NCBI RefSeq assembly: GCF_022414575.1
Contig: NZ_JADWYQ010000020.1
Span: forward strand, 1 to 64,000
DNA length: 64,000 nt
Direction of reading: 5' to 3'
Source: Streptomyces sp. MUM 178J
GTDB taxonomy: Bacteria > Actinomycetota > Actinomycetes > Streptomycetales > Streptomycetaceae
A program made the position numbers and the translations under genes. The notes below the pieces were generated by a model, which saw only the letters and a list, made by a program, of their open reading frames with translations, had not been told where the DNA came from and searched no databases. This document shows positions 6,369-19,649 of the stretch, piece after piece (position 1 is the first letter of the stretch; every line of letters begins with the position of its first letter).

Positions 6369-7493
6369 CTACGCTTGGGCGTCGACAGGATCGGCGACCG
6401 CGCCGATGAGGCAGTCGACCACGTCCAAAAGGCTGGACCTGCGACGGTGGGCGGCCCGCTGCCGATCCGCACCCGCGCCGTTCCCGCGCAGCCGCTCCCA
6501 CGCCGCGTCGGCCTGCTCCGCATCGCCGCTGCGCTCAAGCGCCGGGCGGACATACGCGTACAGCCGGTCGGCCAGGTCGGCGGCCGGCACCAGCCGGTGT
6601 GTGCGCACGTCCAGCGCCTGGCCGCGCAGTCCGTCTCGTGCGGCCCGCCAGTACGCGGCCCGCACCACCTCCGGGGCGGGGTTCGGCACCGGCTCCCCCT
6701 GCTCCGTCTCCCGCAGAGCGGTCGCCACCAGAGCGCGCACCAGCGACGCGTACAGAACCGTGTCCCAGGCGCTCATCAGCGCGTCGGCGGTCCGCACTTC
6801 CAGGGTGGGCACATGGACCGAGGGGCGCACGTCCCAATAGAGGCCCTGCCGGTCCATCACGGCCCCGCCTTCGAGCAGCCTGCCCACCAGCTCCTCGAAG
6901 TGCCCCACGGACTCGAAGTGGGGCGGCGGCCCCGAAACCGGCCAGCGGGCCCAGATCAGGGTGCGCCAGCTTGCGTAGCCGGTGTACCGCCCGGCCCAGA
7001 ACGGGGAGTTGGCGCCGAGGGCGACGAGCACGGGCAGCCAGGGTCGCAGCCGATTGCTCACCTCGATCGCGAGCCTCCGGTCGGCAAGGCCGATGTGCAC
7101 ATGGCAGCCGGCCGTGCCCTGGTCGTCGTTCAGCGCCCGGAAGATCTCCAGGTTGCGCGCATACCGCGCGCCCGGAGTGAGCGGCGGCGGCACGATGTCG
7201 CCGAGCACCGGCGACCCGGACGACACCACCACCAGTCCGTGCGCCGCCGCCGCGCCCGCCGCGACGGCGCGCATCTCCCTTATCTGGTCGCCGAGTTGCC
7301 GCATCGTCGCGCACGGCGTGGTCCTCGCCTCGATATGGAAGCGGGTGAGCTCGTCCCCGACCCGGTCCTCCCCCAACTCCTTGGCGGCGGAGGCGATCAC
7401 ACTCTCGGCACAGGGCCGTACGGCACGCGACACGGGGTCGACGATGAGGTATTCCTCTTCCAAACCCACCGTGAGCAGTTCGTCACTGCGCAT
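6369..7493 (-). CDS. YbdK-type carboxylate-amine ligase (glutamate-cysteine ligase 2 family)
   Basis: A 374-residue member of the GCS2 family (YbdK/EgtA-like ATP-dependent carboxylate-amine ligases). The start MRSDELLTVGLEEEYLIVDP holds the metal-binding GLEEE motif, and GTAGCHVHIGL and NSPFWAGRYTGYASWR are the family's other landmarks. E. coli YbdK has weak glutamate-cysteine ligase activity; the physiological substrate of the Streptomyces homologues is unknown. The open frame extends further upstream, but ATG at 7493 fits the family N-terminus exactly. The C-terminus is Arg/Ala-rich. It stands 62 nt after a GNAT gene on the same strand. Confidence 0.88.
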   Translation of the reverse strand: MRSDELLTVGLEEEYLIVDPVSRAVRPCAESVIASAAKELGEDRVGDELTRFHIEARTTPCATMRQLGDQIREMRAVAAGAAAAHGLVVVSSGSPVLGDIVPPPLTPGARYARNLEIFRALNDDQGTAGCHVHIGLADRRLAIEVSNRLRPWLPVLVALGANSPFWAGRYTGYASWRTLIWARWPVSGPPPHFESVGHFEELVGRLLEGGAVMDRQGLYWDVRPSVHVPTLEVRTADALMSAWDTVLYASLVRALVATALRETEQGEPVPNPAPEVVRAAYWRAARDGLRGQALDVRTHRLVPAADLADRLYAYVRPALERSGDAEQADAAWERLRGNGAGADRQRAAHRRRSSLLDVVDCLIGAVADPVDAQA

Positions 7494-7555
7494 GCCTGGG
7501 AGAGTCTCACACCGGACCCCCGCAACGTGCGGCTGCTGTCGGCCAATTGCGTGGC

Positions 7556-8026
7556 TCAAGCACTTGGGTGCGGCGTGCCGGCGAGCAGCCTCTCGAAGCA
7601 GAGGGAGCTCGGGGAGTCGGCGTACGCCCCGAAGCCGGGAATCCGCGCATAGCCGCAGCGCGTGTAGAAGCGGACGGCGTCGGGCTGGGCGCCCCCGGTC
7701 TCCAGACGCAGACTCCTCCAGCCCCGCCCGCAGGCCCAGTCCTCCGGCGCGGCGAGGACGCCCTGTGCGACACCCGAGCCGCGCCGGTCGGGCACCACGT
7801 ACATGCGCTTGACCTCGCCGACCCCTTCCCCCAGGGAGCGAAGCCCCCCGCATCCGACGGCCGCGCCGTCGCCGTCGTAGGCCACGAAGAACACGGCGAT
7901 GTCGGCCGCCGACGGCGCGGCGCCGGGCTCGCTGTCCGGAGTTCCGTACCGCTCGGCGATCTCCGCTCTCTGACGCGCACGCAGCGCGACGGCATCCGCG
8001 TCCCCCCACGGGACCTGCTTGATCAT
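7556..8026 (-). CDS. GNAT family N-acetyltransferase
   Basis: A 156-residue single-domain GNAT. The acetyl-CoA pyrophosphate loop is VKRMYVVPDRRGSGVAQGV, preceded by the strand VGCGGLRSLGEG and followed by LRLETGGAQPDAVRFYTRCGY, the motif-B block near the C-terminus. Members transfer acetyl groups to small amines or protein N-termini; the substrate here is not predictable. ATG at 8026 (GTG at 8029 is also possible) is preferred because the in-frame extension upstream has no family similarity. It may form an operon with the YbdK-like gene. Confidence 0.85.
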   Translation of the reverse strand: MIKQVPWGDADAVALRARQRAEIAERYGTPDSEPGAAPSAADIAVFFVAYDGDGAAVGCGGLRSLGEGVGEVKRMYVVPDRRGSGVAQGVLAAPEDWACGRGWRSLRLETGGAQPDAVRFYTRCGYARIPGFGAYADSPSSLCFERLLAGTPHPSA

Positions 8027-8166
8027 CACGCCGGTGACTCTGCCACCCGTCTGTTTCGCGCGGATGAACCGCCGCCGGGCCCCGGCTGTGCTTCGGATGC
8101 AGGACATCACGCTCGGCAGCCGCCCGGGCGTCCGGCACCGACTCCGGCTGACCGCCGCGGGCTGAG

Positions 8167-8508
8167 TCAGCAGGCCGCCCAGGGGACGCGGCACGCTCGG
8201 CACGCGTCCCCTTCGGGGCACAGGGCCAGAAGGACGCCCTTGCGCAGGGAGCGCCAGACGCGCAGGGAGCAGGTGAAGCTCAGCCGCAACTCGACCGGTC
8301 TGCGGGCACCCGGGTCCTGGCCGGGCTGCTCGTACGCCCACTGCTCGGCGAGGTAGTCGCAGCTGTCGTCGTCCGGCGGGACGGGCGTCTCGGACCAGCG
8401 GACGATGCGGGCGTGGCGGGCGCGCGCCACGGACTTGACGGACTCTCTGACCCAGGCCATACCGTCCTCGTCCGCATACAGCTCAAGCAGGAGCTTCCGT
8501 TTCCTCAT
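8167..8508 (-). CDS. Hypothetical protein with Cys-rich C-terminus
   Basis: A 113-residue protein I do not recognise. It begins MRKRKLLLELYADEDGMAWVRES, is charged through the middle, and ends with five cysteines in about 18 residues (CPEGDACRACRVPWAAC), which could bind a metal. ATG at 8508 is chosen over an upstream in-frame start at 8550 that would run into the palindrome at 8528-8571. That palindrome lies 20 nt before the start and may be its control region or simply a block boundary. Confidence 0.6.
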   Translation of the reverse strand: MRKRKLLLELYADEDGMAWVRESVKSVARARHARIVRWSETPVPPDDDSCDYLAEQWAYEQPGQDPGARRPVELRLSFTCSLRVWRSLRKGVLLALCPEGDACRACRVPWAAC

Positions 8509-8527
8509 CCGGCACACCGTAGGCGTC

Positions 8528-8571
8528 CTGGACACTGCCCGTACACCCAAATTTGTACGGGTGCTGTCCAG
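8528..8571. repeat. Palindromic element, copy A
   Basis: A 44-bp imperfect palindrome. The outer arms CTGGACA/TGTCCAG are perfect and the inner arms CCCGTACA/TGTACGGG are perfect, with a 3-nt mismatched bubble between them and a CCCAAATT loop. It is related to elements at 9287, 10641 and 11489, and the CC-rich side of the loop lies on the same strand in all four. Confidence 0.85.
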
Positions 8572-8632
8572 CCAAGCCCTCGTGTGGACTCCGAACGCGA
8601 GCGGGGCGGGACCGCCGCTCGCAGCTCTTTGG

Positions 8633-9061
8633 TCAGCAGCTAATAAATGCGCTTCCTGACTCCTTGTAGACGGTCCGGCCGGTCGAACGGTCCTTCACCA
8701 TTCCCAGCGAGTGGTACAGGCCAGACTTGGTGCAGTCGATGCTCACCGGAATCGCACCACCGGTTACGATCGACGGTGGATACCTGCATTCACCTTTCAC
8801 CGGAACCCAGCCCGGAGCGGGGAAAGGCACCCAGACCTCCAGCCAGACGCAGACCTTCGATGCGTTCGAGTAGCCCACCTTCCCGTAGATCTTCCCGCGG
8901 GACTTAGTGGGCAGATACGGGCGGGGTTCGTTCGTGGCCATGGCGATGGCGTCCGTTTCGGCAACCGCGCCCTTGTCCGACGCGGCAGCGGTTCCCGTAC
9001 TGAGGAACGAGGCCGTGAGCCCGGCGGCCATGAGGACTGCGAACGATTTCCGACAGTTCAT
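8633..9061 (-). CDS. Small secreted protein with four cysteines
   Basis: A 142-residue protein with a Sec signal peptide: basic MNCRK, hydrophobic SFAVLMAAGLTASFLSTGT and a likely AAA-S cleavage near residue 28. The mature part of about 115 residues has four cysteines (KVC, GEC, IDC, ISC), suggesting two disulfides, and no domain I recognise. ATG at 9061 is chosen because AAAGG stands just upstream; a GTG at 9076 has no such site. It is divergent from another small secreted protein at 9472 and is bounded by palindromes A and B. Secreted disulfide proteins of this kind can be inhibitors or surface proteins, but nothing decides this. Confidence 0.75.
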   Translation of the reverse strand: MNCRKSFAVLMAAGLTASFLSTGTAAASDKGAVAETDAIAMATNEPRPYLPTKSRGKIYGKVGYSNASKVCVWLEVWVPFPAPGWVPVKGECRYPPSIVTGGAIPVSIDCTKSGLYHSLGMVKDRSTGRTVYKESGSAFISC

Positions 9062-9286
9062 GTGAACCTTTCGCACGGAGGGTGTCAGGGGCGTTTCCTC
9101 CGACCCTTATGGGACGGATGGCATAGCGCCCCAGGCGCTTCTTGCGTCTTCGGCTGCCCATGCGCAGCCCGTGGCGGAGAAGTTAGCGAGCAGAAAATCA
9201 AGCGAGAAGGGTCAGCGTGCACAGCGACCAGGGGCGACGGTCTCGTTCTGCACACTGACGGCCCGACAGCACCGGGAGGGCGCGCG

Positions 9287-9320
9287 GCCGGACACGGCCC
9301 GTACACCGAATCTGCACGGG
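9287..9320. repeat. Palindromic element, copy B, in the 9062-9471 intergenic region
   Basis: The left half (9287-9311) is identical over 25 bp to copy C at 10641-10665. The inner arms CCCGTACA and TGCACGGG pair with one mismatch around a CCGAATC loop; the outer right arm is absent. The rest of this 410-nt divergent gap holds the promoter at 9389 and otherwise nothing I can name. Confidence 0.85.
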
Positions 9321-9388
9321 AGAGAGGTGGGTCGGATTCCCTAGCCCACCACAACCGAAACACAACAAAAGGGATTCCAGCCCCACGA

Positions 9389-9417
9389 TTGGCTGAGATT
9401 CTTCTCGGATTTAAAAA
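9389..9417 (+). promoter_or_regulatory. Candidate promoter of the secreted protein gene at 9472
   Basis: TTGGCT (9389-9394) and TAAAAA (9412-9417) with a 17-nt spacer, in the most AT-rich part of the gap and about 55 nt before the start codon. Confidence 0.5.
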
Positions 9418-9471
9418 CAGTGATCCTTTAGCGTCCCAACAGAAAGCACCCAAAACGCGAAGGAATCCAAG

Positions 9472-9885
9472 GTGACGTTTCGTTCGAAGGTGGCAGCGCT
9501 CGCATCGTGCGCGGCCCTGTTGATGTCAGCTGCAGGAACGGCAGCCGCCGCTTCTCCCGACCCCGCTCCGACACGAGCTCAGTACCAGACGTGCGGGCAA
9601 ACCACCAACGGGACCCTTTGTCTCCACTCACCGGACTTTTCAAAGACGGGGGATTACACGACTGAGTACTGCCGCCACAGAGGTAAAGGAAGCATCACCG
9701 TACGCTTCGGCTACCAGATAAGAGGCAGCGACTATGTGCGGGATGGATACGACCACCAGTTCGTATCCGCAGGCTACTGCGCAGCCTTCACGAGGACCCT
9801 CAACAGCGTAAAGTCGGGAGGCCAGATACGTGGCATCATGAAGTCCGACGGGAAAGTCTACGTAACGAAGTGGAAGGGTCTCTAA
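9472..9885 (+). CDS. Small secreted protein with four mature cysteines
   Basis: A 137-residue protein starting with GTG at 9472, with AGGA 7 nt upstream. The signal peptide is MTFRSKVAALASCAALLMSA followed by AGTAAAA, with cleavage near residue 27. The mature part has four cysteines (QTC, TLC, EYC, GYC) and many Gly, Tyr and Thr residues. I recognise no domain. Base composition is lower in GC than the backbone genes. The VanZ-like gene follows 30 nt later on the same strand, so the two may be co-transcribed. It forms a divergent pair with the gene at 8633-9061, which encodes a protein of the same type and size but without obvious sequence similarity. Confidence 0.75.
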   Translation: MTFRSKVAALASCAALLMSAAGTAAAASPDPAPTRAQYQTCGQTTNGTLCLHSPDFSKTGDYTTEYCRHRGKGSITVRFGYQIRGSDYVRDGYDHQFVSAGYCAAFTRTLNSVKSGGQIRGIMKSDGKVYVTKWKGL

Positions 9886-9915
9886 CCGTCAGCTGCTTCA
9901 TCTGAGGACGTCCAC

Positions 9916-10482
9916 ATGCTGCTTACCGCTGCCCATATGCCCCTTTACGCCATGCTAGCCATGCTGCTTTTGCTTGCGATATTCACCGCAGTAGGCCACT
10001 GGGTGGCCGTGGCGCGCCCGGATGGCGTTCGCCGGGTGACGTGGGTCGCAGGGGCCATGTGGCTGATCAGCGTGCTTGCCGTCACGCTCACGGGCGTTGG
10101 GCCGGACGTTGGCCAGGCCTCCCCTTGGTTCTCCGACGGCATCGCCACCCTCTCCGCCCCCGCCTCACAAGCGTCGGAGACGGAGAAGCAGATGGTGCTG
10201 ATGCAGTGGATGCTCAACGCTCTGCTCTTCACTCCCCTGGCCCCCGTTCTGTCGTTGGCACGGAAACGCCCCATCGCCGCCTGGCGGATGATGGCCGCAG
10301 CGCTGGCCATCTCGGTGGGCGTGGAGACGCTTCAGTGGGTACTCGCTGCCTCACGCGTGCCGGACGCGGAGGACGTGGTGTGCAATGTGCTTGGCGCGGC
10401 TGTCGGGATTGTCCTGGTGGCGGCCGTGCGCCGTGTGGTTGCCACCTACCGACGACCACGGTACGCAAGCACCACCCGCTGA
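9916..10482 (+). CDS. VanZ-like family membrane protein
   Basis: A 188-residue integral membrane protein with about four to five hydrophobic segments. The VanZ pattern is visible: LNALLFTPLAPVLSL after helix 2, then the charged helix ISVGVETLQWVL and RVPDAEDVVCNVLGAAVGI, where the Glu, Gln, Asp and Asn are the conserved polar residues. VanZ of enterococci gives low-level teicoplanin resistance; the activity of distant homologues is not known. ATG at 9916 has GAGGACG upstream. It is the second gene of the block bounded by palindromes B and C. Confidence 0.85.
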   Translation: MLLTAAHMPLYAMLAMLLLLAIFTAVGHWVAVARPDGVRRVTWVAGAMWLISVLAVTLTGVGPDVGQASPWFSDGIATLSAPASQASETEKQMVLMQWMLNALLFTPLAPVLSLARKRPIAAWRMMAAALAISVGVETLQWVLAASRVPDAEDVVCNVLGAAVGIVLVAAVRRVVATYRRPRYASTTR

Positions 10483-10640
10483 CAGGCGCGCGGTGTGCAT
10501 GTTGCTGACGCCGCGCTCACCGTCCGGCCCGCACGTGAGGCGGCCCATCGGCTCAACTGGTCCCGCTGGCGACGCCGCCACCAGGCCCGCTCCCAAGCCA
10601 GCCGCTACCAGCGACAAGCTACAGCTGGAGTACCAGGCAT

Positions 10641-10666
10641 GCCGGACACGGCCCGTACACCGAATT
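10641..10666. repeat. Palindromic element, copy C (left half only)
   Basis: Identical to copy B over 25 bp (10641-10665), but the right arm is missing and the sequence turns into the 3' end of the S1/SUKH gene, whose stop is only 4 nt away. The 15-nt core 10652-10666 recurs at 11489-11503 with one change. Confidence 0.85.
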
Positions 10667-10669
10667 CAC

Positions 10670-11464
10670 TTATCGGCTGAAGATCTCGAAGTTGGGTACA
10701 AAGCGGGACCTGTCCTGCGGGTCTGTGATGTCGTCGAGGTCCGTGAAGTAGATCGACCTCGACGTGCCTGCCACCACATCGAGGAGAAACCGGCTGCACA
10801 AGGCCGGATGAGCCTCCCAGAGGGGGCCGCGGCCCTCGTTGAGGAGGACGGTCCACTCTTCCGGTTCGAGGCCGGGTCGGACCAGCCAGTAGAGGAAGTG
10901 GCCAGAACCTTCCACGTACCCCCAGGGCACCAGCCGGACGTTGTCTTGCTGAAGTTCAGACGGCTTGGCCTCGCCCGCGCTCCAGAGTTCGGCGAGGATC
11001 TCCTCCCGCTCCGCAGCCTGGGCGACGAGGTCGTACATCTCATCTGGACAACCCGGCTCCAGCAGCCGGATCGTCCCCGCGAAGAGGCCGCCTCCGTACA
11101 TCTGGACGAGACGCCTGTAGTCGGCCGGCAAGGCGGTGCCCAGCGCCTCCTCCACAGCGGCCCACTCCACGGTTCGGCCGCCGACGGCAGGTGGCGGACA
11201 GAGGCGTGCCAGCGGCTCGGTGTGGCGCAGGCTCCGGGCCGTCCTGATGTCGCCGGGCAGGGCGCTGAGCCGTGGCGGGGTCCTGGAGGCGTCCAGCACT
11301 GCCACGCGCATGCGGTCGCCGACCGCGGCGCGGGGCGCATCCGACCACCACGAAGGGTGTTTGACCTGGTCGATGAACCCGTCGTGCCCTTCTATGTCGA
11401 CCACCGCCCCAACGGAGGCCACGGCCTTGACCACTACGTCGTACTCCTGGTGATCGGCAAACAT
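10670..11464 (-). CDS. S1-like/SUKH (SMI1-KNR4) fusion protein
   Basis: A 264-residue protein in two parts. Residues about 7-70 look like an S1/OB RNA-binding fold: EYDVVVKAVASVGAVVDI, then DGFIDQVKH and VGDRMRVAVLDASRTPPRLSAL, matching the strand order of S1 repeats. Residues about 95-250 match the SUKH superfamily (VEEALGTALPADYRRLVQMY, then GGGLF, VRLVPWGYVEGSGHFLYWLV). SUKH proteins are often immunity proteins of polymorphic toxin systems, but no toxin gene is adjacent. ATG at 11464 fits the domain start; longer in-frame starts would run through palindrome D. TAA at 10670-10672 lies against palindrome C. Confidence 0.75.
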   Translation of the reverse strand: MFADHQEYDVVVKAVASVGAVVDIEGHDGFIDQVKHPSWWSDAPRAAVGDRMRVAVLDASRTPPRLSALPGDIRTARSLRHTEPLARLCPPPAVGGRTVEWAAVEEALGTALPADYRRLVQMYGGGLFAGTIRLLEPGCPDEMYDLVAQAAEREEILAELWSAGEAKPSELQQDNVRLVPWGYVEGSGHFLYWLVRPGLEPEEWTVLLNEGRGPLWEAHPALCSRFLLDVVAGTSRSIYFTDLDDITDPQDRSRFVPNFEIFSR

Positions 11465-11488
11465 GGCGTCCACCCTGTCACCACGTAA

Positions 11489-11521
11489 CCCGTACGCCGA
11501 ATTTGTACGGGCGGTGTCCGG
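11489..11521. repeat. Palindromic element, copy D
   Basis: Inner arms CCCGTAC and GTACGGG flank a GCCGAATTT loop; the outer right arm CGGTGTCCGG is present and the outer left arm is absent. It is thus the mirror of copy C, which keeps only the left half. It lies in the 91-nt divergent gap between the S1/SUKH gene and the XRE regulator. Confidence 0.85.
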
Positions 11522-11528
11522 TCGAGCA

Positions 11529-11542
11529 CCCTGTGTACAGGG
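11529..11542 (+). promoter_or_regulatory. Palindrome upstream of the XRE regulator
   Basis: CCCTGT-GT-ACAGGG, a perfect 6+6 inverted repeat ending at the ribosome binding site of the XRE gene. It is a plausible autoregulatory operator. Confidence 0.45.
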
Positions 11543-11555
11543 AAGGGGGGTTGCC

Positions 11556-12383
11556 ATGCATGGGAAGCGAAATGGCAACAGGCCCAAGAGGATCACCTCT
11601 TGGCATCTGATCGGGGCTCAGCTCGCGGTGTTCCGGGCTGCGGCGAAGATGACGCAGGGCGGGTTGGCGAATCTGCTGGGGGTGAGTGAGGAGACGGTCG
11701 CGTCGATCGAGCAGGGGCGCAGGCCGCTGAAGATGGACCTGGCGGTCAAGCTGGACCATCTGCTGGACACGAAGCAGGCGTTGCAGACGGCGGTGGAGAA
11801 GGTGCCGACGCGGGAGAAGTTTCCCGCGTTCGTTCAGGACTTCATCCACCACGAGCAGGAGGCGCTGACGCTGCTGTCGTACGAGAACCAGGTCGTGCCG
11901 GGGCTCCTGCAGACTGAGGAATACGCGCGAGCAGTCTTCTGCTGCCTCTACCCGCCGCTGGACGAGGACCAGTTGAACGAGTGGGTTTCGGCCAGGTTGG
12001 AGAGGCAGAAGGTTCTGGCGCGTAAGCCGCCGCTTATGGCCAACTTTGTGCTTGAGGAGTCGATCCTGTACCGACCCATCGGTGGCCGCGACGTGTTGCG
12101 CAGGCAGATCCGTCATCTGCGGGAGTACGCCGAGCTGCCTTCACTCGGGTTGCAGATCATGCCGACCGGCCGAGAGCCGCATGCCGCTCTCGACGGCCCC
12201 ATCGTGCTGTTGGAGACGTCCGAGCACGATCACCTGGCCTACATTGAGGGACAACGGGTCAGCTTCCTCATTGATGACCTGGACGAGGTCAGCGTGCTCC
12301 AGCAGAAGTATGGGATGCTGCGTTCGCAGGCCCTCTCACCCGAGGAGAGCATGCGTCTGCTGGACGAGCTGCTAGGAGAATGA
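11556..12383 (+). CDS. XRE family (DUF5753) transcriptional regulator
   Basis: A 275-residue regulator with an N-terminal XRE helix-turn-helix at about residues 15-75 (IGAQLAVFRAAAKMTQGGLANLLGVSEETVASIEQGRR) and a C-terminal DUF5753 ligand-sensing-type domain (YENQVVPGLLQTEEYARAV, later YRPIGGRDVLRRQIRHL). Such regulators in Streptomyces are normally paired with a DUF397 protein, as here; characterised pairs (WhiJ-like, Scr1/Scr2) affect development or antibiotic output. ATG at 11556 is preceded by GGAAGGGGGG; an in-frame upstream start at 11463 would read through palindrome D. The stop overlaps the next gene. Confidence 0.9.
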   Translation: MHGKRNGNRPKRITSWHLIGAQLAVFRAAAKMTQGGLANLLGVSEETVASIEQGRRPLKMDLAVKLDHLLDTKQALQTAVEKVPTREKFPAFVQDFIHHEQEALTLLSYENQVVPGLLQTEEYARAVFCCLYPPLDEDQLNEWVSARLERQKVLARKPPLMANFVLEESILYRPIGGRDVLRRQIRHLREYAELPSLGLQIMPTGREPHAALDGPIVLLETSEHDHLAYIEGQRVSFLIDDLDEVSVLQQKYGMLRSQALSPEESMRLLDELLGE

Positions 12384-12649
12384 TGAACCGCGACGCAAGC
12401 ACCCGCCCCGGCATAGACATCCACTGGTTCAAGTCCAGCTACAGCGGCAGTGAGGGCGGCAACTGCGTCGAAGTGGCCTATGAGTGGCGCAAGTCCAGCT
12501 ACAGCGGCAGCCAAGGCGGCGACTGCGTCGAGGTTGCCGCCCACCCCGGCGCCGTCCACGTCCGGGACTCCAAGAACCCCGGCGGCCCCGTCCTCACCGT
12601 CTCCCCCGCCGCCTGGGTCTCTGCCGTCCGCGGAGTCGTCGTCCGTTGA
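12383..12649 (+). CDS. DUF397 protein with internal duplication
   Basis: An 88-residue DUF397 protein. The family core, W-x-K-S-S-Y-S-x-x-x-G-G-x-C-V-E-V-A, occurs twice in tandem (first W encoded at 12425, second at 12485), a 60-bp duplication, followed by the usual VHVRDSKNPGGPVLTV and AAWVSAV. The normal family has one copy. ATG at 12383 is preferred because AGGAG ends 4 nt upstream; ATG at 12380 overlaps the regulator stop and is also possible. It is translationally coupled to the XRE gene and is likely its partner. Confidence 0.9.
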   Translation: MNRDASTRPGIDIHWFKSSYSGSEGGNCVEVAYEWRKSSYSGSQGGDCVEVAAHPGAVHVRDSKNPGGPVLTVSPAAWVSAVRGVVVR

Positions 12650-12757: not shown

Positions 12758-14110
12758 TCAGAAACCGCCGCCCGCGTCGAAGCCGCCGAAGCCGCCTCCG
12801 CCGAAGTCTCCGCCGCCGCCCCAGTCGCCTCCGCCGCCGAAGTCACCGGAGTCGAAGTCCGCGCCGGAGTAGTCGCCGCCGGTGAACTCGCCGCCGCCGT
12901 ACTCGGCGGCATACGCGGGGGTGGCGAGCATATGGCCGAGCATGGTGCCCATCAGCAGGCCGGGAAGCAGCCCGCCGCCGAAGTAGCCGCCGGCCCAGGG
13001 GCCGTACGCCGGGCCCGCCTCCCAGTACGGGCGGCGGCCGGATTCGGTCTCGACCGTGCGGGCCATGGGCTCCTGGCCGTCTTCCAGGCGGGCCGCGTCC
13101 GCCGCGCAGACGGGGATCTGGCGCGGGGAGCCGCCTGCCGGGCTCCACATGGCGTCCGCGGCCGCCGGGCCGTGACGGGGGTCGAAGAAGCAGGGCGGAC
13201 GGCGGTCCGGGATCGACTCGCCCGTCCGGCGGGCGTCCAGGACCGCGAGCGAGTAGCGGCCGTCTTCGAGCTCCTGGGTGACCGCCTTGACGTCGTGCGG
13301 GCGCTCGGCCGCGCCCATCAGCGACTTGGCCTTGTCGTACGAGTCGAGTGCGCGCTCGTAGTCGGAACGCATCGCGTCGTCCGCGCCCTTCTCGGAGGGG
13401 TGGAAGTCCAGCCGGTCGAGCTCCTCGCCGTACGAGGTGATGTCCTCGTCCACGACGACCCGCAGCTTCTCGAGGGCCGCCCGCTCCTCCTCCGCCTTGC
13501 GGCGGCGGTTGCGGCGCACGATCGCGTACGCGCCCGCGCCGCCTGCCGCGGCGACCGTGCCGAGCACGATCAGCGAGGTGCCGCTCGGGCCCTCGGGGGC
13601 GCCGCCCGTGCCGTCCCAGCCGGCGGGTGCGGTGCCGCGGACCTGCGGCAGGGCCTGGTCGACGAAGTTGTTGAGCTGGGTGACGGCGTCGGCGCCCGGC
13701 GGGGTCTTGACCGCGGTCACCAGGTTCCGTACGGCGTCGTTGGACATCACGCTGCTGTCCGCGCCCGCGTTGAAGCCGTCGCCGAGGCGGATGGCGTACA
13801 GGCCGGTGATTCCGGTCTGGGTGCGGAGATCGCGCAGGACGGTGTCCTCGGGGAACTCCTCGCCCTCCGGCAGGACGGCCACGAAGACGGGCTTGTCCGC
13901 GTCGAGGATCTTCTCCGCCAGTGCGTCCGCCTCAGCGGTGGACAGCTGGTCGGAGGCGCGTGGGTCCACATAGACCGGGCCCCGCTTCAGGGCGTCGGCC
14001 GCGTCGGGGATTCCCTGGGCTCGCGCTCCGGCGCCGGCGGCCAGGACGAGCAGCACGGAGAGCGCCAGCGCCGCGAGGGCCGACAGGAGTGAAAACGGCC
14101 TCGTCTTCAT
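12758..14110 (-). CDS. TPM-like membrane protein with Gly-rich C-terminus
   Basis: A 450-residue protein: signal peptide (MKTRPFSLLSALAALALSVLL), an extracytoplasmic domain of about 130 residues with the TPM/repair-type pattern (LSTAEADALAEKIL, KPVFVAVLP), one transmembrane segment near residues 178-200 (SGTSLIVLGTVAAAGGAGAYAI), then a cytoplasmic region with coiled-coil character (RRNRRRKAEEERAALEKLRV). The last 60 residues are Gly/Asp/Phe-rich (GGGGDWGGGGDFGGGGF), like C-termini of TPM-domain proteins. The function in Streptomyces is unknown. ATG at 14110 is the only sensible start. It is 60 nt from the terminator at 14171 and appears monocistronic. Confidence 0.75.
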   Translation of the reverse strand: MKTRPFSLLSALAALALSVLLVLAAGAGARAQGIPDAADALKRGPVYVDPRASDQLSTAEADALAEKILDADKPVFVAVLPEGEEFPEDTVLRDLRTQTGITGLYAIRLGDGFNAGADSSVMSNDAVRNLVTAVKTPPGADAVTQLNNFVDQALPQVRGTAPAGWDGTGGAPEGPSGTSLIVLGTVAAAGGAGAYAIVRRNRRRKAEEERAALEKLRVVVDEDITSYGEELDRLDFHPSEKGADDAMRSDYERALDSYDKAKSLMGAAERPHDVKAVTQELEDGRYSLAVLDARRTGESIPDRRPPCFFDPRHGPAAADAMWSPAGGSPRQIPVCAADAARLEDGQEPMARTVETESGRRPYWEAGPAYGPWAGGYFGGGLLPGLLMGTMLGHMLATPAYAAEYGGGEFTGGDYSGADFDSGDFGGGGDWGGGGDFGGGGFGGFDAGGGF

Positions 14111-16230: not shown

Positions 16231-16842
16231 TCACGTAGTGAGCAGCGTGTCCGCAAGGAACTCCCGGACGTGGGCGAGCGCCTGCTCGCGGCCCGTGCCC
16301 GGTATGCCGACCGCCACATGGACGCTGAAGCCGTCCAGCAGGGCGCGCAGCCTGGTGGCGTACCGGTCAGGGTCCACGGGACGGAACTCTCCGCGCGAGA
16401 CCCCTTCGGCGAGCAGCGCCACCAGATCGCGGTGCCAGACGCCCTCGATGGCCGCCTGGCGGGCGCGGGCGTCCGCGGCGGCGTCCTGCGAGCGGTTCCA
16501 GACCTCCAGCCACAGCATCCAATGGGGGTCGCGGTGGCCCTCGGGGACGTAGAGGTCCACATAAGCGGACAGCCGCTCGGCCGCCGGGGCCTGCCGGGAC
16601 AGCAGCGCGCTGCGCTCCGCGCCGAGGCGGCCCTCGCTCCACTCCAGGGTCTGCAGCAGCAGCTCGTCCTTGGTGCCGAAGTAGTAGAGCAGATGGCCGC
16701 TGCTCATCCCGACCTCGCGGCCGAGGCCCGCCATGGTCAGTCCGTCGAGTCCGCGCTCCGCGATGGTGGCCATGGCGGCGGCGAGCACGGACTCCCGGGG
16801 CGGCGCGACATTGCGCCGGCGGGGAGCGGGAGCAGGGGTCAT
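16231..16842 (-). CDS. TetR family transcriptional regulator
   Basis: A 203-residue TetR/AcrR regulator. The helix-turn-helix is at about residues 15-60 (ESVLAAAMATIAERGLDGLTMAGLGREVGMSSGHLLYYFGTK), followed by an all-alpha domain of the BetI-like type with WMLWLEVWNRS. It is the last gene after ureAB-ureC-aguA on the same strand (87-nt gap), so it may control that operon; the paired palindromes upstream of ureAB are candidate operators. The ligand is unknown; a polyamine or related nitrogen compound would fit the context, but this is inference. Confidence 0.88.
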   Translation of the reverse strand: MTPAPAPRRRNVAPPRESVLAAAMATIAERGLDGLTMAGLGREVGMSSGHLLYYFGTKDELLLQTLEWSEGRLGAERSALLSRQAPAAERLSAYVDLYVPEGHRDPHWMLWLEVWNRSQDAAADARARQAAIEGVWHRDLVALLAEGVSRGEFRPVDPDRYATRLRALLDGFSVHVAVGIPGTGREQALAHVREFLADTLLTT

Positions 16843-16929: not shown

Positions 16930-17946
16930 TCAGACCTTCGGCTGCTGCTGGGTGATGCAGTGGATGCCGCCGCCGCCCGCGAAGATCGTGCGGGCGTCGA
17001 CCAGTGTGACCGTGCGGTCCGGGTAGAGGCGGCGGAAGGTGTCGGCCGCGATCTCGTCGCGCGGGTCGTCGAAGGCGCACAGCACGACGCCGCCGTTGCA
17101 CACGTAGTGGTTGACGTAGGAGTAGTCGACCCACTCGCCGTCCTCCTCGACGACGGTCGGGGCCGGGATCTCGACCACCTCGACGGCGCGGCCCCGTGCG
17201 TCGGTCTGGGACTTCAGGAAGGCGACGTTCTCCCGGCAGATCTCATGGTCGGGGTGGGACGGGTCGGGCTGGGTGTGGGCGACGATCACACCCGGCCCCG
17301 CGAAGGCGGCGACGATGTCGACATGGCCGAGGGTGCCGAAGTCGTGCGGGGGGTAGTCGGCGGTCAGTCCGCGCTTGAGCCAGATCGCCTTGGTCGTGCC
17401 GAGTTGGGCGTGGATCTCGGTCTCGACCTGCTCCTTGGTCCAGCCCGGGTTCCGCTCCGGGCCGAGTTGGACGGTCTCCGTCAGCAGGACCGTGCCCTCG
17501 CCGTCGACATGGATGCCGCCGCCCTCGTTGACCAGCGCGGAGCTGTGGACGGAGACGCCCGCGAGGTCGGCGACCACGCGGGCGATCTTGGAGTCGTGCT
17601 CCCAGCTGGCCCACTCCTGGGCGCCCCAGCCGTTGAACACCCAGTCCACGGCGGCCAGGCGGGTGCCGTCGGAGACGAAGGTGGGGCCGATGTCGCGCAT
17701 CCAGGCGTCGTCCAACTCACGCTCGACGATGTCGACGCCCGGGCCGAGGAGGGTGCGTGCGTGTTCCGCCTGGCCAGGGCCGACGACCATGGTGACCGGC
17801 TCGAAGCGGCGTACGGCGCGGGCGACCGAGGCCCAGGCGCGGCGGGACTCGGCGAGGTCGTCGCCGGAGAAGGTGACGTTCGGGCCGGGCCAGGCCATCC
17901 AGGTGCGCTCGTGGGGCGCCCACTCGGGCGGCATACGGAAGGACAT
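16930..17946 (-). CDS. aguA: Agmatine deiminase
   Basis: A 338-residue enzyme of the peptidyl-arginine-deiminase fold. It turns agmatine into N-carbamoylputrescine and ammonia. Family marks: MPPEWAPHERTWMAWPG at the N-terminus, DDAWMRDIGPTFV, NEGGGIHVDGEGT, the His motif GHVDIVAAF, and the catalytic Cys in AGGGGIHCITQQQP near the C-terminus. ATG at 17946 fits the family start although the open frame extends upstream. It begins 11 nt after the ureC stop, so it is in the same operon. No N-carbamoylputrescine amidase gene is present in the window. Confidence 0.92.
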   Translation of the reverse strand: MSFRMPPEWAPHERTWMAWPGPNVTFSGDDLAESRRAWASVARAVRRFEPVTMVVGPGQAEHARTLLGPGVDIVERELDDAWMRDIGPTFVSDGTRLAAVDWVFNGWGAQEWASWEHDSKIARVVADLAGVSVHSSALVNEGGGIHVDGEGTVLLTETVQLGPERNPGWTKEQVETEIHAQLGTTKAIWLKRGLTADYPPHDFGTLGHVDIVAAFAGPGVIVAHTQPDPSHPDHEICRENVAFLKSQTDARGRAVEVVEIPAPTVVEEDGEWVDYSYVNHYVCNGGVVLCAFDDPRDEIAADTFRRLYPDRTVTLVDARTIFAGGGGIHCITQQQPKV

Positions 17947-17957
17947 CAGCTGGGTTC

Positions 17958-19649
17958 CTAGAGGAAGTAGAGGCGGTTGAGGGAGATGGAGTCGGCGGGG
18001 CCGGAGTGCACGGGGTCGCCGTCGAGGGTGACCAGTCCGGTGCGGCCGTCGACGCCGACGTGCCCGATGCGGGAGTTGAGGCGCAGGTCGGCGGGGCCGA
18101 TCCCGCGGGTGCCGCGGACGGCGACCCGGCGGCGACGCGTGGGCATCCGGTCCGCGCCCAGGTCCACGGCGGCCTGCGCGACGAACGCGACGGAGATGTC
18201 GGCGGGGGTCGCTCCGTGCGCCCCGAACTGCGGCCCCAGGACAAGAGGTTCGCAGGTGTCGGTGGCGGCGTTCGGATCGCCCGTCACCCCGTACGCAGGG
18301 AAGCCGGACTTCAGCACAAGCTGCGGCTTCGCGCCGAAGTACTGCGGCTTCCACAGCACGATGTCGGCGAGCTTCCCGACCTCGATGGAGCCGATCTCAT
18401 GGGCGAGGCCGTGTGCGATGGCCGGGTTGATCGTCAGCTTGGCGACATAGCGCAGCACGCGCACGTTGTCGTCGTGCGGGCCGTCGCCCTCCAGCGGGCC
18501 GAGCTCCGCCTTCATCTTCCCCGCCATCGCGAAGGTGCGGCGCACCGTCTCGCCGGCCCGGCCCATGCCCTGGGCGTCGGAAGAGGTGATGCCGATGGCC
18601 CCGAGGTCATGGAGCACGTCCTCCGCGCCCATGGTTCCGGCGCGGATGCGGTCGCGGGCCATGGCGGCGTCGCCGGGCAGGTCGGTCTTGAGGTCGTGTA
18701 CGGAGACGATCATCCCGTAGTGCTCGGCGACCGTGTCCCGGCCGAAGGGCAGGGTGGGGTTGGTGGAGGAGCCGATGACGTTCTCCACGCCCGCCATCTT
18801 GAGCACGTTGGGGACGTGTCCCCCGCCGCAGCCCTCGATATGGAAGGCGTGGACGGTACGGCCGTCGAGGACCCGCAGGGTGTCCTCGACCGACAGGCAC
18901 TCGTTGAGGCCGTCGCTGTGCAGGGCGACCTGGACGTCGTGCTCCTCGGCGACCCGCAGGGCGGTGTCCAGGGCGCGGGTGTGCGCGCCCATGTCCTCGT
19001 GGACCTTGAAGCCGGACGCGCCGCCCTCGGCGAGGGCCTCGACGAGCGGCGCCGGGTCGGACGACGACCCGCGGCCGAGGAAGCCGATGTTGACGGGCCA
19101 GGCGTCGAAGGCGTTGAAGGCGTGGCGCAGCGCCCAGGGGGAGTTGACGCCGACGCCCCAGACCGGGCCGAACTCCTGGCCGATGACCGTGGTCACGCCG
19201 GAGGCGAGCGAGGCCTCCATGATGCGCGGCGAGAGCAGATGGACATGGGTGTCCACCGCGCCCGCCGTGGCGATCAGGCCCTCGCCGGGGATGATGCCGG
19301 CGCCGGTGCCGACGACGACGTCCACGCCGTCGAGGGTGTCGGGGTTGCCGGCCCGGCCGACGGCCGCGATCCGGCCGCCGCGGATGCCGATGGAGACCTT
19401 GCGGACGCCCTGGACGGCGTCGATGACCAGCACATTGCTGATCACGATGTCGCAGGTGTCGCGTACGGCGGCGGCCTTGAGGTGCAGTCCGTCACGTGCG
19501 GTCTTGCCGAAGCCGGCGAGGAACTCCTCGCCGGGCTTCTGGGCGTCGGACTCGACGCGGACGACAAGGCCGGAGTCTCCGAGGACGACGCGGTCGCCGG
19601 CGCGGGGGCCGTGGACGGCGGCGTACTCGTACGGGTCGATGCCGGTCAT
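17958..19649 (-). CDS. ureC: Urease alpha subunit, atypical
   Basis: A 563-residue UreC homologue. All expected nickel ligands are present by alignment to the Klebsiella enzyme: His135/His137 (DTHVH), Lys215 and His217 (FKVHED), His244 (ALHSD), His270 (FHIEG) and Asp358 (SSDAQ). The mobile flap differs: Klebsiella MVCHHL corresponds to VSVHDL here, so the catalytic-flap Cys is Val317, His318 is kept and the next His is Asp319. The loop after SGVTT is shortened and rewritten, and HEDWG has become HEDMG. It overlaps ureAB by 4 nt. No accessory genes (ureD, E, F, G) are nearby. Whether it hydrolyses urea is open. Confidence 0.88.
   Translation of the reverse strand: MTGIDPYEYAAVHGPRAGDRVVLGDSGLVVRVESDAQKPGEEFLAGFGKTARDGLHLKAAAVRDTCDIVISNVLVIDAVQGVRKVSIGIRGGRIAAVGRAGNPDTLDGVDVVVGTGAGIIPGEGLIATAGAVDTHVHLLSPRIMEASLASGVTTVIGQEFGPVWGVGVNSPWALRHAFNAFDAWPVNIGFLGRGSSSDPAPLVEALAEGGASGFKVHEDMGAHTRALDTALRVAEEHDVQVALHSDGLNECLSVEDTLRVLDGRTVHAFHIEGCGGGHVPNVLKMAGVENVIGSSTNPTLPFGRDTVAEHYGMIVSVHDLKTDLPGDAAMARDRIRAGTMGAEDVLHDLGAIGITSSDAQGMGRAGETVRRTFAMAGKMKAELGPLEGDGPHDDNVRVLRYVAKLTINPAIAHGLAHEIGSIEVGKLADIVLWKPQYFGAKPQLVLKSGFPAYGVTGDPNAATDTCEPLVLGPQFGAHGATPADISVAFVAQAAVDLGADRMPTRRRRVAVRGTRGIGPADLRLNSRIGHVGVDGRTGLVTLDGDPVHSGPADSISLNRLYFL

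Follow-up and report, generated by a model that had tools for sequence, protein, structure and literature searches.

In a 64,000-nucleotide stretch of the Streptomyces sp. MUM 178J genome (contig NZ_JADWYQ010000020.1, positions 1 to 64,000; here called the window), four copies of a related palindrome, elements A to D, lie close together beside a regulatory gene pair. From sequence comparison we propose, with a probability of roughly 0.8, that the palindrome serves as operator for the WhiJ-type XRE/DUF5753 regulator encoded next to it and that A, B, and C are lineage-specific copies left as genes accreted at the locus. Element D is most likely the operator-like site native to the XRE-DUF397 pair of the window. 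Its core (11489..11511, plus strand) has the form CCCGTACG-CCGAATT-TGTACGGG and lies 44 bp upstream of the start codon of the first gene of the operon, which encodes a WhiJ-type XRE helix-turn-helix protein with DUF5753 (11556..12383, plus strand), the probable binder. The second gene encodes its BldB-type partner, recognized by a DUF397 domain match (12383..12649, plus strand).

Conserved position upstream of XRE/DUF5753 genes

The exact pattern CCCGTACA-N7-TGTACGGG was found in 71 of 392 Streptomyces genomes, the source genome not being among the 71, and the reversed control matched in 3 rows. At 26 of 30 retrieved loci with the exact palindrome, the site adjoins the start of an XRE/DUF5753 gene, and 24 of these 26 have a DUF397 match as well.

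With the window's XRE protein as query, 23 relatives were identified in named Streptomyces. The dyad is present at 30 of 32 XRE genes (31 relative loci plus the window), and in 29 of these 30 it has GTAC in both halves and lies 42 to 45 bp upstream of the start codon. The remaining dyad, in locus L078, has one core change and lies 38 bp from the start codon, while the XRE genes of L086 and L089 have no dyad. When a larger set (93 loci plus the window, containing 93 XRE genes) was searched with a spacer of 7 only, 68 genes had the dyad, 60 of them at 43 to 45 bp from the start codon. The palindrome stands at a fixed distance upstream of XRE across relatives, and D is the only one of the four elements that belongs to this series. 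Gene calls in the relative loci came from a simple custom script, not a standard gene finder, and some of these loci are one place retrieved twice.

The strict form CGTAC-N9-GTACG occurs at most 150 bp upstream of 31 of 33 XRE genes at ≥60% identity, 32 of 54 at 45 to 60%, and 0 of 1 below 45%, versus 1 of 1,299 other genes from those loci. The window and four identical XRE genes were left out of this comparison, as were AbaA-like genes from the other-gene count because they share the gap with XRE. Of 88 distinct XRE genes, 63 have a spacer of nine bases (n in CGTAC-Nn-GTACG) and 3 have one of ten, equivalent to an inner spacer of 7 versus the 8 of element A. One motif-free XRE gene, in L182, has a start that is apparently wrong or truncated.

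Both flanks of D (11477..11525 with flanks, plus strand) are similar to those of orthologous operators (empirical p of 0.004 on the left and 0.001 on the right). The window was excluded from this flank test, and its rows for C, with coordinates shifted by two, were disregarded; one site matrix of the analysis contained the window's own D. The source genome has 23 DUF5753 matches. A second XRE paralogue in this genome (L250 1162-1180; G000:C5:191475) has CGTAC-N9-GTACG at a distance from its start that exceeds the window's by a single base.

Co-variation within the dyad

Co-variation was analyzed over 55 unique sites, selected by GTAC in both halves, in all of which the bases adjoining GTAC are C and G. 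At the three pairs outside this invariant core, pairs 7, 8, and 9, the halves are complementary in 47, 46, and 35 of the 55 sites, compared with 27, 27, and 23 in shuffles, with CC/GG, GT/AC, and GC/GC as the co-varying combinations. G-T at pairs 7 and 9 is below the shuffled level. No co-variation is seen at pairs 10 and 11 of the 55 sites, and it is weak at pairs 12 to 16. The pattern at pairs 7 to 9 is as would be expected of a DNA site for a protein dimer, which is preferred over an RNA structure because the pairs co-vary without favoring G-T.

Architecture and genomic distribution of the four elements

All four elements reported in the initial annotation are borne out by the sequence, at the coordinates given there, as related, intergenic, and contained within 3 kb. 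Element A (8528..8571, no strand assigned) is a full 44-bp dyad with an 8-bp spacer, 29 bp upstream of the start codon of a minus-strand gene for a 113-amino-acid (aa) protein. Element B (9287..9320, no strand assigned) combines the left outer arm with two inner halves, the right one altered to TGCACGGG, and lies 151 bp upstream of the start of gene 9472. Element C (10641..10666, no strand assigned) is the left half and loop only, with no right half; it does lie in a convergent gap, vanZ ending at 10482 and a SUKH-like gene at 10670, and it does share 25 identical bases with B, both as previously described. Element D in full (11489-11521) has both inner halves and the right outer arm, with no matching left outer arm. 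On the left of A, B, and C is an inverted form of D's right arm. A common loop polarity had also been claimed; this holds for B, C, and D, which have the loop CCGAAT, and fails for A, whose loop is the 8 bases CCCAAATT.

The palindrome is restricted to this locus in the source genome. In the full-genome search that had been suggested, GGACACNGCCCGTACA matches exactly only four times in 6.63 Mb, always within these 3 kb, with 1 one-mismatch match elsewhere. At ≤2 mismatches there are 38 genome matches versus 16 for the reversed control, and an 18-base half-site at ≥15/18 matches the window 4 times, its reversed control not once. These counts make a chance origin of the elements unlikely. None of 99 other genomes contains a 32-base A-type pattern at ≤3 mismatches, and element A had no match on plasmids. 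The one-mismatch match of GGACACNGCCCGTACA elsewhere in the genome is at C35:13854, in a locus (L007) without an XRE match.

Folded as single-stranded DNA, element A reaches -14 kcal/mol, a value that none of 200 shuffles equals. The hairpins of B, C, and D are not better than shuffles (39, 30, and 81 of 200 equally good), leaving A as the only strong hairpin of the four. An RNA structure or terminator was considered and rejected: there is no Rfam match at E up to 1 for 8000-12500, G-T is not favored, and a strong hairpin is confined to A.

Genes of the locus and their relatives

The 113-aa protein (8167..8508, minus strand), of unknown function, is a candidate target of element A. Two genes encode small secreted proteins, with signal peptides judged by eye. 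One (8633..9061, minus strand) has relatives in 0 of the 198 other Streptomyces genomes searched; the other, gene 9472 (9472..9885, plus strand), precedes a VanZ-like gene (9916..10482, plus strand), which stands behind the gene 9472 relative in 8 of 13 other loci too. Next to the XRE gene is the SUKH/SMI1-like gene (10670..11473, minus strand), whose Pfam scores are just under the cut-offs. It occupies the place held in most relatives by a divergent AbaA-like HATPase gene, the upstream neighbor of XRE in 26 of 33; abaA is missing in L067 as well. In 15 of 31 relative loci, as in the window, yceI is found upstream of XRE and a gene 12758 relative downstream, while in L072, L085, and L086 the XRE relatives are at a different place. 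The DUF397 gene has an internal near-repeat of about 20 residues (window 12423-12538), also seen in L079.

Relatives of the 113-aa protein occur in 20 of the 198 other genomes and those of gene 9472 in 13 of 198. At the starts of these relatives (20 and 13 loci, respectively) the palindrome is absent, bar four loose matches outside the source genome: one more than 1 kb from the gene (L153), one about 140 bp before the matched part (L160), and two inside the secreted-protein gene (L166 and L167). Relatives of the SUKH-like gene, found in 11 stretches from 10 genomes with the DNA match confined to window 10673-11486, lack both the palindrome and a close XRE relative; in L128, a distant XRE (28% identity) lies about 6 kb from the SUKH-like relative. 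L121 is exceptional in having a 113-aa relative besides the SUKH-like one, the two (G238, 8633-9403 and 17584-17970) falling within about 9 kb. In 1 of the 20 loci with a 113-aa relative, L149, it stands beside DUF397 and AbaA-like matches. The source genome also has a broken, truncated second copy of the 113-aa gene (G000:C6:81455-81709; L131, L161), with 88% DNA identity to window 8132-8408. Among the matches listed from 295 genomes searched, no genome matches the whole region. The scan for a recombinase covered 20 proteins of the window, as far as position 16788, and not the remainder of the window or genome; none of the 20 is a recombinase.

Origin of the extra copies

An IS701-family insertion sequence (IS), overlooked in the initial annotation, has left a 3'-terminal remnant at 10511..10632 (plus strand), its right end about 10 bp before C. 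Fourteen copies from other Streptomyces genomes match it at 76 to 88% DNA identity, and several matching plasmid copies are annotated as IS701 family transposase. A short deletion precedes the right end of the remnant.

A comparable case is L079 (Streptomyces sp. TSRI0281, 6880-10060), where a 2.95-kb insert with three genes (dehydrogenase, HxlR, and MFS) lies between abaA and XRE, flanked by a 143-bp repeat (115/143 identical, 80%) that contains the abaA start and the operator. Among 67 relative XRE genes with the dyad, only L079 has a convincing second full copy in its locus, in a search that used D as query and detects A (by its right half), not B or C. Extra half-site matches at dyad-bearing loci number 6 versus 5 for the control and, because they are not above it, mean nothing; those in L082 (18/19, inside a called gene), L132, and L229 (both 16/19) are at control level and were not used.

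In view of the L079 insert and the IS701 remnant beside C, the simplest history is probably that IS activity and recombination led genes to accrete at a variable locus, the operator probably being copied in the process. Since A, B, and C have an inverted form of D's right arm on their left, the palindrome must have become more perfect than D in one step or more. The suggestion in the initial annotation that gene blocks accumulate at the element survives in part: accretion with operator copies between the genes is supported by L079 and the IS701 remnant, a dedicated cassette system is not.

Interpretation and alternatives

At D, an XRE dimer would contact a pair of half-sites built around CGTAC, the inner halves separated by seven bases, and would thereby regulate its own operon together with the divergent gene, DUF397 acting as its partner. 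In most relatives the divergent gene is abaA-like; here, the SUKH-like gene would have taken its place. Elements A, B, and C would be operator copies that arose in this lineage during gene accretion, helped by the IS701-family element and perhaps by recombination through duplicated operator DNA. Given its near-complete form and its place 29 bp ahead of a start codon, A may remain a binding site and add the 113-aa gene to the regulated set; B and C are probably weakened or dead, doing little. The initial annotation had offered a binding site of the neighboring XRE protein as an alternative, which the position kept across Streptomyces XRE relatives strongly favors for D; A, B, and C fit it imperfectly.

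Several observations weigh against this interpretation. The three copies do not keep the core and usual spacer, A having a spacer of 8, B a core change, and C a half only. Decay is not required either: the spacer of A occurs in 3 of 88 relatives and the core change of B in L078, so that A and B need not be dead. The strict motif is missing from 22 of 54 XRE genes at 45 to 60% identity, and CGTAC-N9-GTACG is missing from 21 of the 23 DUF5753 loci of the source genome, where only 2 of its 18 places precede such genes (window and paralogue). The invariance of GTAC is partly built in because the sites were selected by GTAC. The shared outer arm GGACAC and loop CCGAAT exceed what operators in the relatives need, and simple copying of D does not yield the inverted D right arm on the left of A, B, and C. 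Finally, the one measured site found for a WhiJ paralogue, that of WhiJ9 in S. venezuelae, is three direct repeats of CGXXCTCAAC, not a palindrome, in the account of that locus in PMC10294661.

The most serious alternative, possible though we consider it unlikely, is a local regulon in which A, B, and perhaps C are selected operators through which XRE jointly controls the SUKH-like gene and the genes for the 113-aa protein and the small secreted proteins. In its favor, A forms a full dyad just ahead of a start codon, B precedes the secreted-protein/vanZ pair, both could still bind (the only operator of L078 has the TGCACG change of B), and WhiJ9 is described as regulating a neighbor from an intergenic region (PMC10294661). 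Against such a regulon, no such palindrome stands at the starts of the 113-aa, secreted-protein, or SUKH-like relatives; the loose matches concern 4 of 33 loci and in two cases fall within the gene; C has a gene's 3' end on either side; and the loops are identical, which indicates copying rather than separate selection. Less likely again is that the operator is an insertion-prone spot, where breaks or IS insertions are repaired with duplication so that operator copies come to flank foreign genes with no dedicated enzyme. The repeat-flanked insert of L079, the proximity of the IS701 end to C, and the loss of abaA from L067 would all fit, but only two loci (the window and L079) among 68 dyad-bearing XRE genes show it, other variable genes sit elsewhere between yceI and the gene at 12758, and the L079 repeats are only 80% identical, suggesting a foreign allele brought in by homologous recombination. 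A further reading, which we regard as speculative and improbable, is that WhiJ-type operators serve as acceptor spots, incoming genes landing between duplicated operators and coming under resident WhiJ/BldB control on arrival; if true, this would be a regulator-centered way of adding genes to the developmental network.

Least probable is the cassette-type system put forward in the initial annotation, with the palindrome as an attC-like recombination site at which a recombinase inserts gene blocks. It would account for a copy at each of the four block junctions and for the SUKH-like block matching other genomes only between C and D (10673-11486). Yet the palindrome accompanies the regulator gene in relatives, the same blocks elsewhere lack it at their ends apart from the loose matches, none of the 20 window proteins scanned is a recombinase, the B, C, and D hairpins are no better than shuffles, D has native-looking flanks on both sides, and a second full copy is confined to L079. 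Two further candidates were rejected. Insertion of the SUKH-like gene might have split one ancestral operator, as the left half in C and the right half in D jointly make a perfect dyad; the orthologue-like flanks on both sides of D make it look intact and not half of a split operator. The palindrome as part of an IS, or as an IS701 terminal repeat, was dismissed because the half-site scores at best 11-15/18 in 14 IS701 loci, versus 12-16 for the control; a 27-base stretch over C has an 85% match in the IS-bearing L287 and L292, about 650 bp inside the IS and without the GTAC core.

Comparison with known systems

Integron attC cassettes have imperfect palindromes between small gene blocks. In contrast, the palindrome described here accompanies a regulator gene, the blocks occur elsewhere without it, and no integrase is found among the 20 proteins scanned. 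Repetitive extragenic palindromic (REP) and bacterial interspersed mosaic elements (BIME) are short intergenic palindromes in several copies. A REP-type element, also raised in the initial annotation, was rejected because many dispersed copies would be required, and here there are four copies at one locus of 6.6 Mb. As for the IS701 family, a 3' remnant does lie beside C, yet the half-site in other IS701 copies is not above control.

Streptomyces genomes hold many WhiJ/BldB/AbaA-type gene sets and, to our knowledge, how each WhiJ-type regulator finds its own site is poorly known. For a large clade of such regulators, a position-conserved palindrome that co-varies next to its core offers a predicted site that can be tested directly. 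The copies arrayed in the window are of lesser interest, as a record of gene accretion beside a regulator.

No report among the open-licence literature matches listed names this palindrome, and palindrome or inverted-repeat wording is absent from the main texts on the XRE-DUF397 pairs of S. coelicolor, such as Scr1/Scr2, which are of the same gene-pair type as in the window (PMC6262351, PMC10364602). Whereas this kind of gene pair is already known, the operator assignment may be new. The closest parallel is the WhiJ9-BldB9-IosA locus of S. venezuelae, which likewise combines an XRE protein (WhiJ) with a DUF397 partner (BldB) and a divergent neighbor (PMC10294661). As that locus is described, WhiJ9 binds within its own intergenic region, is probably an activator of the divergent gene, and shows a sign of autorepression (PMC10294661). 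By analogy, the XRE protein of the window would be expected to recognize D and regulate both its operon and the divergent gene. Both loci would then have an intergenic site, described for WhiJ9 and predicted from sequence in the window, the two differing in form: direct repeats in S. venezuelae, and here a CGTAC-N9-GTACG palindrome with three nearby copies (PMC10294661).

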